Source: Methanoregulaceae archaeon (GTDB lineage Bacteria; Armatimonadota; Fimbriimonadia; Fimbriimonadales; Fimbriimonadaceae). From it: a stretch of 64,000 nucleotides of DNA. The notes beneath the pieces are model-generated. The model was not told the DNA's origin. It did no database searches and was given only the letters and a program-made list of their open reading frames with translations. Shown piece after piece: positions 19,406-48,607 of this stretch; positions within the stretch are counted from its first letter, which is position 1; each line of letters starts with the position of its first letter. The position numbers were made by a program, and so were the translations under genes. The DNA is taken from the NCBI GenBank assembly GCA_020850325.1, contig JADZEW010000024.1, positions 1 through 64,000 of the forward strand, in the 5' to 3' direction.

Positions 19406-19412
19406 GCAACAA

Positions 19413-19475
19413 CGGCGGCCCGTATCATCCGCCGGCTACAAGAACCTCGTGGCCATGGGATGATACGTGCCCGTG
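19413..19475. repeat. pair of REP-like hairpins (family 1) in opposite orientation
   Basis: On the minus strand GTAGCCGGCGGATGATACGG begins one unit (head CTAC at 19436-19439; GGCGG/CCGCC stem). On the plus strand a second unit (19449-19475) has a GTGG head, CATGGG/CCCGTG stem and the loop ATGATACGTG. Confidence 0.65.
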
Positions 19476-19514
19476 GGATCTCCTACAGTTACCAGCCGAG
19501 GCAACCCTCATGCG

Positions 19515-22118: not shown

Positions 22119-22130
22119 GATTTGGCGCCA

Positions 22131-22352
22131 CGTGGGCCAGGATGTCTTGTGCCCGGCATGAGCGGGCATCAACACGGAGCGTCGGCGTTGGCTCGTCCGC
22201 CGACGTTGTGAAACTTCGCGCAGGGCCTTCGTGACTCGAAACCTGCGCCTACACCTGAATGCCCTCAACCAACGTGGGACAGGGATGTCTTGTGCCCTGC
22301 TTACCGGGGACTTAGCACGGAGCGTCGGCGTGGGTTCGTCCGCCGACCTTGT
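22131..22352. repeat. two direct copies of an 80-bp repeat with family 2 hairpins
   Basis: Copies at 22131-22209 and 22273-22352 share blocks such as GATGTCTTGTGCCC and CACGGAGCGTCGGCG. Each contains GTCGGCG and CGCCGAC around a 10-nt loop (TTGGCTCGTC at 22188; TGGGTTCGTC at 22331). Together with the tandem repeat and the hairpin at 22218-22252 they fill the 397-bp gap 22072-22468, which holds no gene. Confidence 0.7.
22218..22252 (-). repeat. GTAG-headed hairpin repeat, family 3
   Basis: On the minus strand GTAG is followed by GCGCAGG, a loop containing TTTCGAGTCACG, and CCTGCGC. A second copy is at 59020-59060. Confidence 0.55.
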
Positions 22353-30589: not shown

Positions 30590-30673
30590 GTCTCTCTATT
30601 GTGAACGCCGGATCAGGGCTTTTGGAGCCGGACCGCGCTGCTGGGGTCGATGCGTGAGCAACGATGCTTCTTT

Positions 30674-30893
30674 GTAGCCGCCGGATGCCATTGTGCCAGC
30701 GTGAATGCGGCTCGAGCCAGGTTCAGCGCGGGCACGGATGAGGCTGGTGCATGATTCCCTTGGGCGGGCCCCCGTAGTCGCCGGTTGGCTCGTACCGGCG
30801 TGGGATTGCCGCTCCGGCAAGCTTAGCGAGGGCACGACGCATCCCTCGCCCACAAAGAGGTGCGACGACGGAACCGTATCATCGAGCGGCTAC
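30674..30893. repeat. cluster of REP/BIME-like hairpins
   Basis: Within the 250-bp gap lie at least four units. 30674-30701 has GTAG, then CCGCCGGATGCCATTGTGCC. 30774-30800 has GTAG, then CGCCGG/CCGGCG around TTGGCTCGTA. 30826-30849 has GCGAGGG/CCCTCGC, with minus-strand loop ATGCGTCGTG. 30866-30893 is on the minus strand, headed by GTAG at 30893-30890. The last head provides the TAG stop of the pabB-pabC gene. No gene is seen in the gap. Confidence 0.7.
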
Positions 30894-47625: not shown

Positions 47626-47692
47626 AGAGAGCATCATCGGCCGGTCTGGGCTCGACTCAGGCTGTTGGCGCTTGGGACGTGCAGTAAACTTC

Positions 47693-47774
47693 GTAGCCGC
47701 GGGATGATACGTGCCCGCGCTGAACCGAACTAACGAGCCGGATCAACGCCGGCACAATGGCATCCGGCGGCTAC
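47693..47774. repeat. facing pair of REP-like hairpins (BIME-like)
   Basis: 47693-47720: GTAG, then CGCGGG/CCCGCG around ATGATACGTG. 47747-47774, on the minus strand: GTAG, then CGCCGG/CCGGCG around ATGCCATTGTG. The two face each other across 26 bp, the layout of a bipartite REP element. Confidence 0.75.
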
Positions 47775-47830
47775 AATAAGTTTTGGTTGCCTAATGTAGC
47801 AGCCTCGACCCGGGCCGGCTTTGATTTTCT

Positions 47831-48436: not shown

Positions 48437-48510
48437 CGAGTGTCGAATGACGCTTGTACGAATGTTGGTCGGGGCGGCCGCCCGCATCATCGCTGATGGC
48501 AAAGGCAATC

Positions 48511-48539
48511 GTAGCCGCGGGATGCACTCGTGCCCGCGC
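48511..48539 (+). repeat. REP-like hairpin, family 1
   Basis: GTAG, then CGCGGG/CCCGCG around the 11-nt loop ATGCACTCGTG. Same head and stem as at 47693 but a different loop centre. Confidence 0.7.
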
Positions 48540-48607
48540 TAACTGCCGCAACATCTCAGAAGTCCAGTTCGAACAGCCACCCACCCCGCAAAACTACTAG
48601 ATATCGA

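Follow-up and report, generated by a model that had tools for sequence, protein, structure and literature searches.

A short REP-carrying element with probable specificity for REP loops in a genus of Fimbriimonadaceae

REP units of the window and their distribution

The window, by which we mean the whole stretch of DNA analysed (64,000 nucleotides of contig JADZEW010000024.1), belongs to a genome of 3.52 Mb in 41 contigs (G000). The host family, Fimbriimonadaceae, is part of Armatimonadota, and a MAG of the same genus (G057) was taken as the sister genome. An earlier reading of the sequence alone (the sequence-only reading) had described GTAG- or GTGG-headed hairpins of the REP type in the window. 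The units identified here are the following.

19411..19441, minus strand: REP unit with GTAG head (covariance model, 31.0 bits)
19447..19477, plus strand: REP unit with GTGG head, back to back with the 19411 unit (model, 37.6 bits)
22130..22159, plus strand: weak REP unit with GTGG head, absent from the earlier list (model, 20.4 bits, E 0.0026)
22272..22302, plus strand: REP unit with GTGG head, of the class of the RAYT at C1:173082, absent from the earlier list (model, 34.7 bits)
30672..30703, plus strand: REP unit with GTAG head and a single stem mispair (covariance model, 35.2 bits)
30772..30802, plus strand: REP-like unit of another class (GTAGTCGCCGG-TTGGCTCGTA-CCGGCG), within a type-2 element (model, 16.9 bits, E 0.024; alignment)
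30825..30855, minus strand: REP unit with GTGG head, within the type-2 element (covariance model, 44.1 bits)
47691..47721, plus strand: REP unit with GTAG head and loop ATGATACGTG (covariance model, 44.6 bits)
47745..47776, minus strand: REP unit with GTAG head and loop ATGCCATTGTG, facing the 47691 unit (covariance model, 39.9 bits)
48509..48540, plus strand: lone REP unit with GTAG head (covariance model, 44.3 bits)

The window units share a GTAG or GTGG head; their stems, of 6-7 bp, end in GG/CC, their loops read ATG-N4/5-GTG, and all copies in the window, where position was examined, are intergenic. Nine of the 14 covariance-model matches listed up to E=1 had E<=0.003, in the order 47691 (+), 48509 (+), 30825 (-), 47745 (-), 19447 (+), 30672 (+), 22272 (+), 19411 (-) and 22130 (+). 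The eight hairpin places named by the sequence-only reading are all present in the window sequence, and the covariance model added the units at 22130 and 22272, which that reading had overlooked. Its description of GTAG/GTGG-headed REPs in facing pairs was borne out by the sequence and the model matches.

The covariance model was built from 39 aligned units, hand-picked among pattern-listed units; the pattern listing had left out units with fewer than 4 of 5 top pairs before alignment. At the foot of the hairpin, 35 of the 39 carry the tetranucleotide GT[AG]G, and the other 4 carry GAGG or GAAG. The results showed that 66 stem cells were changed on both sides, compared with 18.9 in shuffles, confirming the stem covariation claimed by the sequence-only reading; such double-sided changes occur in 5 of 7 stem pairs, with a covariation score of 0.673 against 0.07-0.11 when the partners were slid. 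Paired stem cells made up 91.9% (42-51% with slid partners), a percentage that is biased because the units were pre-filtered for pairing, while the double changes are less affected.

With the same model, the genome search that had been proposed as a check on the hairpins returned at least 126 copies in G000 and at least 133 in G057 at E<=0.01; both counts are lower bounds because 150 candidates were scored per genome (150 of 2667). A tighter pattern, GTAGCCGCSGGATGNNNNNGTGCC with at most 3 mismatches, matched 45 places in the genome, whereas its reversed control matched 5. A loose pattern applied to just the window matched 9 times against a shuffle mean of 4.7, and 4 of 100 shuffles reached 9, which is weak. 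A chance origin of the units was rejected on the reversed control, the covariation, the model copy number and the duplication statistics given below. Blocks of about 80 bp, each a facing pair, recur at loci with unrelated flanks, as seen when copies of the window pair were aligned.

Among 85 genomes of Fimbriimonadaceae, the tight unit pattern was found in 2, both of the window's genus. A scan of a collection of named genomes with the family-1 pattern (the family described from the window pair) found nine stretches of Fimbriimonadaceae bacterium RX3_metabat.bin.16, which is the sister MAG; a match in Oxalobacteraceae is not a real REP, as the model finds nothing there and the facing unit is absent. 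Judged by sequence, the units are a REP superfamily: the head is GTAG, GTGG or GAGG, the stem has about 6-7 bp, and the loop, of 10-11 nt, follows the pattern NNG-N4/5-GTN. This superfamily is present in many classes within one Fimbriimonadaceae genus that encodes several RAYTs.

Several further observations concern REP-like units at other loci. Several loci of G000 and G057 (L007, L023, L040, L045, L141) have units of a further class, headed by CCCTGAGG and with TGGGNTCGTC or a similar sequence as the loop; this class adjoins a sister RAYT and is absent from the covariance-model alignment. The units of a REP pair at G000:C21:131521-131598 lie about 18 nt apart and in the sister (L079:105-829, JANJUB010000042.1) about 660 bp apart, the gap there being overlapped by an ORF of 207 aa. 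At L059:750-830, an 81-bp stretch with one GTGG REP immediately follows a stop codon, has CTAG at either boundary and is missing in the sister (L107).

RAYT transposase genes and their REP classes

The sequence-only reading had attributed the hairpins to RAYT transposases. The Pfam Y1_Tnp profile identified 8 places in G000, 7 of them above the cut-off, and four of the genes are RAYT-like (C1:173082, C26:152642, C28:37581 and C22:136386). With NCBIfam NF047646 (REP_Tyr_transpos, cut-off 80 bits), three scored 88, 82 and 82 bits and the C26 gene 66 bits, below the cut-off; this gene, the lowest-scoring of the four, has a match (E 3e-6) to a TnpA-REP of solved structure, chain 4er8_A. The HxH (PDHxH) and Y---NP motifs are found in all 6 aligned RAYT proteins. 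The IS200-like genes at C1:114760 and C16:1839 were set aside, as they are not flanked by these REPs, and so were two Y1 genes on C15 and C8, whose long inverted repeats are unrelated to the GTAG units. The latter two (L033, L034) are flanked by CTTCCCACCACAGTTGT and TGGCCCGCCACAGTGCGACTGTGGCGGGAAGGG, respectively, like published TIRtrons.

Units of the superfamily flank three of the four RAYTs: GTGGGGYAGGG units on both sides of C1:173082, GAGG-headed units on both sides of C26:152642, and two units, upstream only, at C28:37581. The RAYT at C22:136386 has units of another class, GAGG-CTGGCGG-TTGCATTGTC-CCGCCAG with loop TTGCATTGTC, on both sides. No exact family-1 unit (GTAGCCGC) flanks any of the four G000 RAYTs. 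The units closest to family 1, GTAGCCGGGGG and GTAGCCGTCGG, flank a sister-genome RAYT that is 56% identical to the C28 protein, and the units beside a second sister RAYT are of a GAGG class whose loop is TGGGCTCGTC. The genus thus has several RAYTs, and a separate REP class goes with each of them. The attribution to RAYTs was right in kind, with RAYT genes present and units of the same superfamily beside them, and found no support for family 1 itself, which flanks no RAYT in G000. The accompanying expectation of a Y1/RAYT gene flanked by the units was likewise borne out for three of the four RAYTs at the level of the superfamily and for none at the level of exact family-1 units.

The hairpins might alternatively be immobile and maintained by selection because they terminate transcription or stabilise mRNA. 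The intergenic position of the window copies, as in known REP genomes, would suit such a role; the recurrence of the same sequences at unrelated loci with unrelated flanks, the covarying classes, the association with RAYTs and the presence or absence of copies between the sister genomes speak against it, and we regard it as extremely improbable. The hairpins may still have a secondary role in mRNA.

The 150-bp element and its insertion into REP loops

The homology around the window pair is of two sizes: the facing pair of about 80 bp, and a longer block, of about 150 bp, with GAGGCTGTTGCATTGTGCC inverted repeats at its ends. The features of the larger block in the window are as follows.

47654..47657, no strand: left copy of a presumed 4-bp duplication, GACT, with 3 of 4 bases matching the right copy
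47658..47806, minus strand: 149-bp type-1 element with terminal inverted repeats GAGGCTGCTACATTAGGC.../...CAACAGCCTG, enclosing the REP pair (alignment)
47807..47810, no strand: right copy of the presumed 4-bp duplication, GACC, adjoining the element

This element has 85% identity to a copy on contig C30, and its ends are decayed. The pair that the sequence-only reading had placed at 47693-47774 is a real REP pair, and the 149-bp element around it had been missed. On this point the claim that RAYTs move the pair is unsupported or incomplete: the element has terminal inverted repeats and is flanked by a near-duplication of 4 bp, and insertion of this kind is not known for enzymes of the IS200/IS605 type.

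The inverted-repeat pattern had 12 matches in G000 with up to 3 mismatches, and none in the reversed control. At up to 2 mismatches, a search of 85 genomes gave 8 matches in G000, 8 in G057 and one in each of four others; these four single matches, in other genera, look like chance. The element is short and gene-free; terminal inverted repeats bound it, and a REP pair occupies its centre. The copies have common ends, and 8 of the 12 whose length was determined span 149-156 bp. In alignment, the position of the REP pair is constant and its class varies between copies: GTAGCC+GTAGCC, GTAGCC+GTGGGCGAGGG, GTAGTC+GTGGGCGAGGG, GTGGGTTCC+GTGGGAGC, and one with different hairpins.

The insertion point was clearest at C26:193260. 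In G000 this site reads REP half, CCTC, 151-bp element, CCTC, REP half. The same site in the sister genome (L200) is empty and holds an intact REP, CACGTGGGGCAGGGATGCCTCGTGCCCTG, with one CCTC (CACGTGGGGCAGGGATG-CCTC-GTGCCCTG); on either side of the site, the two genomes align for more than 1.2 kb, at 92% and 82% identity. This was the one clean case of the search for empty sites in the sister, which located 8 of 10 anchors, at 7 of 8 element sites. For the 156-bp element at C8:147402-147557, the sister locus L196 has an intact GAGG-class REP and is orthologous on the right side only. The C30 and C26:275684 sites were uninformative; for the C11 site and the two element sites of the window, the whole stretch is missing from the sister genome, with no clean empty site; and L088, the ortholog of C26:201096, diverges too far past a terminator for comparison. 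Most sites differ in the sister by more than a simple insertion.

The flanks of element copies with both ends often rejoin to another REP. Rejoined units read GGGATG-TATC-GTGCCC (C30), GGGATG-CCTC-GTGCCC (C26:193260), GACGATG-TTTT-GTGCGTC (C26:201096), GAGGGTG-GCTC-GCACCTC (C8 and one sister locus) and CGGGTTG-ATAC-GTGCCCG (a sister locus), and the insertion lies in the middle of the loop, whose four central bases recur at either end of the element. By eye, 6 of 11 sites rejoin to a REP with a stem and a 3+4+3 loop. In a test that is independent of sequence, the insertion point fell in a hairpin at 8 of 11 sites (p<0.04 against 33200 random positions); the test failed at the other three, C26:275684 and two odd-length elements of the sister genome. 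The 4-bp duplications are perfect in 2 of 12 cases, have 3 of 4 bases equal in 6 of 12, and agree in 2 or fewer bases in 4 of 12. Taken together, the flanking 4-mers share 31 of 48 positions, where shifted controls share 12.1, and none of 20000 trials was as high. The tests drew on 12 end pairings: the outer L083 pairing (239-458), which shares its left end with another pairing, was omitted from the hairpin test, and the window copy was added for the duplications. Decayed copies (L044, L045, L047, L054, L092, L094, L096, L097, L099 and the window copy at 30740) lie outside both tests; in L045 and L097, one flank still has half of a REP by eye. L042 and L095 may not be independent, because the target type and a mismatched duplication are common to both. 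These results indicate that the element inserts in the centre of a REP loop and that the four bases there become duplicated, as seen at the one clean empty site and supported by several other copies.

The REPs could instead be ordinary RAYT-moved REPINs alone, and the longer element and its position in loops a product of chance juxtaposition or of rearrangement between repeats. The age and decay of the copies would fit this, as would the more-than-simple differences at most sister sites. The clean empty site with its single CCTC, the hairpin and duplication statistics, and the near-constant length and common ends of the element all oppose it, and we consider it very unlikely.

A second element of the window was found as part of a nested arrangement, at 30672-30893, with these features.

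30727..30736, minus strand: 3' arm of a split REP (CGCGGGCACG on the plus strand), partner of 30876-30893 (sequence, alignment)
30740..30875, plus strand: type-2 element within the loop of the split REP, with left inverted repeat GAGGCTGGTGCATG and right end lost (aligns with C26:275684-275835; right boundary approximate)
30876..30893, minus strand: 5' half of the split REP, with GTAG head and 5' arm, read earlier as a unit at 30866 (sequence, alignment)

The type-2 element carries the REP at 30825 and the weaker REP-like unit at 30772. The model did not recover the 30866 unit whole, because it is a half unit with a second element between its arms. The sequence-only reading had noted that the copies at 30674 and 30866 pair poorly; the 30674 stem has indeed one mispaired position (CGCCGG/CCAGCG), and the poor pairing at 30866 arises because the REP is broken by an insertion, not from a badly conserved stem. 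In alignment, the outer flanks of the locus faintly resemble the type-1 element, so that, on sequence grounds, the locus would consist of one element lying in a REP that itself lies in another element. Equal nesting is seen in the sister genome, with better-kept ends.

Mode of movement and comparison with known systems

The genus holds REPs together with an element of about 150 bp; we consider it probable that this element is non-autonomous, has REP-loop specificity and is moved in trans by a DDE transposase. The RAYTs would presumably spread the REPIN-like facing pairs of about 80 bp, and the longer element would most likely be moved by the DDE transposase acting in trans, a RAYT being less likely. 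The transposase would recognise the REP hairpin, whether extruded or double-stranded, and each insertion would destroy one landing site and supply two. Because the element carries two REPs, landing sites would be renewed and elements could nest, as at 30672-30893 and in the sister genome.

Searches of the two draft genomes with the PF01609 and PF00665 profiles found no DDE transposase gene with the inverted repeats of the element; drafts break at multi-copy elements. PF01609 identified one IS5-like gene in G000 and none in the sister, and PF00665 identified IS3-like and other genes whose ends are unrelated to the element. An autonomous parent among these DDE_Tnp_1 and rve genes was rejected, as the ends do not match. 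Separately, an IS3-type element lies at the ends of contigs C1 and C34 (L205, L207); this makes it probably multi-copy and a cause of breaks in the assembly. Beyond its C34 copy, at no more than about 100 bp, there is a REP of the GTGGGGCAGGG class.

Another explanation is that the elements of about 150 bp are themselves REPIN-like pairs moved by a RAYT, with worn GAGG REPs of the C22:136386 class (loop TTG-CATT-GTG) as their ends, a second REPIN inside, and a duplication made through an unusual HUH mechanism. The GAGG-CTGGCGG-TTGCATTGTC-CCGCCAG units of the C22 RAYT resemble the element end GAGGCTG-TTGCATTGTGCC, the motif GAGG-N0-8-TTGCAT[TC]GT was found only in elements and at the C22 RAYT (in 654 kb of loci), and by eye a GGCTG/CAGCC stem can form at the left end of the C30 element. 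This short end stem is not kept in other copies, the one clean empty site leaves the 4-bp duplication in no doubt, and target duplication is not known for IS200/IS605-type enzymes. Weighing these points, we judge a RAYT origin of the elements unlikely. A wider proposal, which we put forward tentatively, is a self-feeding nested system that would join HUH and DDE transposition, in which the element targets REP loops, carries REPs, and has ends derived from the REPs of a RAYT.

Much of what surrounds the element has precedents. The available text of PMC3733652 describes GTAG REPs from many phyla, dimers of REPs within palindromes and RAYTs that have other inverted repeats, and that of PMC3116915 describes REPINs. 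As far as the accessible text of PMC2817692, PMC3116915, PMC3733652 and PMC6006769 goes, GTAG REP/REPIN/RAYT systems likewise have a GTAG/GTGG head 5' of a covarying stem and facing pairs of about 80 bp, with several classes per genome and Y---NP RAYTs flanked by their own class; unlike the GTAG REPs presented there, the units here have a 10-11-nt loop with fixed NNG...GTN ends, and GAGG heads in some classes. The name Armatimonadota does not appear in the available text of PMC3733652 or PMC6006769.

Insertion sequences that target REPs (ISPsy8, IS1397, ISKpn1, ISRm22, ISPpu9/10) are treated in the available portions of PMC1525189 and resemble the element in inserting at the same point of the REP. 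ISPsy8 and ISRm22, described there as inserting at the symmetry axis of the palindrome with direct repeats of 3 bp and 6 bp, respectively, are by analogy its apparent nearest counterparts in loop insertion. According to the same portions, REP-targeting insertion sequences carry a transposase gene, whereas the 150-bp element is gene-free, carries a REP pair and duplicates 4 bp. The available text of PMC10969869 reports QMITE2 of Coxiella burnetii, a MITE that holds a REP and through it is a target of IS1111, and that of PMC3733652 reports GTAG-15 dimers inside long palindromes of Anabaena variabilis. Both are, likewise, a short element or palindrome holding GTAG REPs; the landing of such an element in REP loops, as seen here, is not reported in those texts (PMC10969869, PMC3733652). 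REP-hitting insertion sequences and REP-bearing MITEs are thus known separately, and their combination is what appears to be new. The open literature searched holds no report of a REP-pair-carrying element that targets REP loops, which is weak evidence, as most subscription papers lie outside it.

REPs are among the commonest bacterial repeats, and their spread, the formation of mosaics and the elements that target them are still argued. The REP/RAYT systems presented here are in Armatimonadota, a phylum for which none is described in the literature searched. The two sister genomes provide a natural experiment on a REP-carrying element that lands in REP loops. Such an element offers a simple way in which REP arrays can become mosaic and nested, and it allows testing whether hairpins are true targets of transposition in cells.
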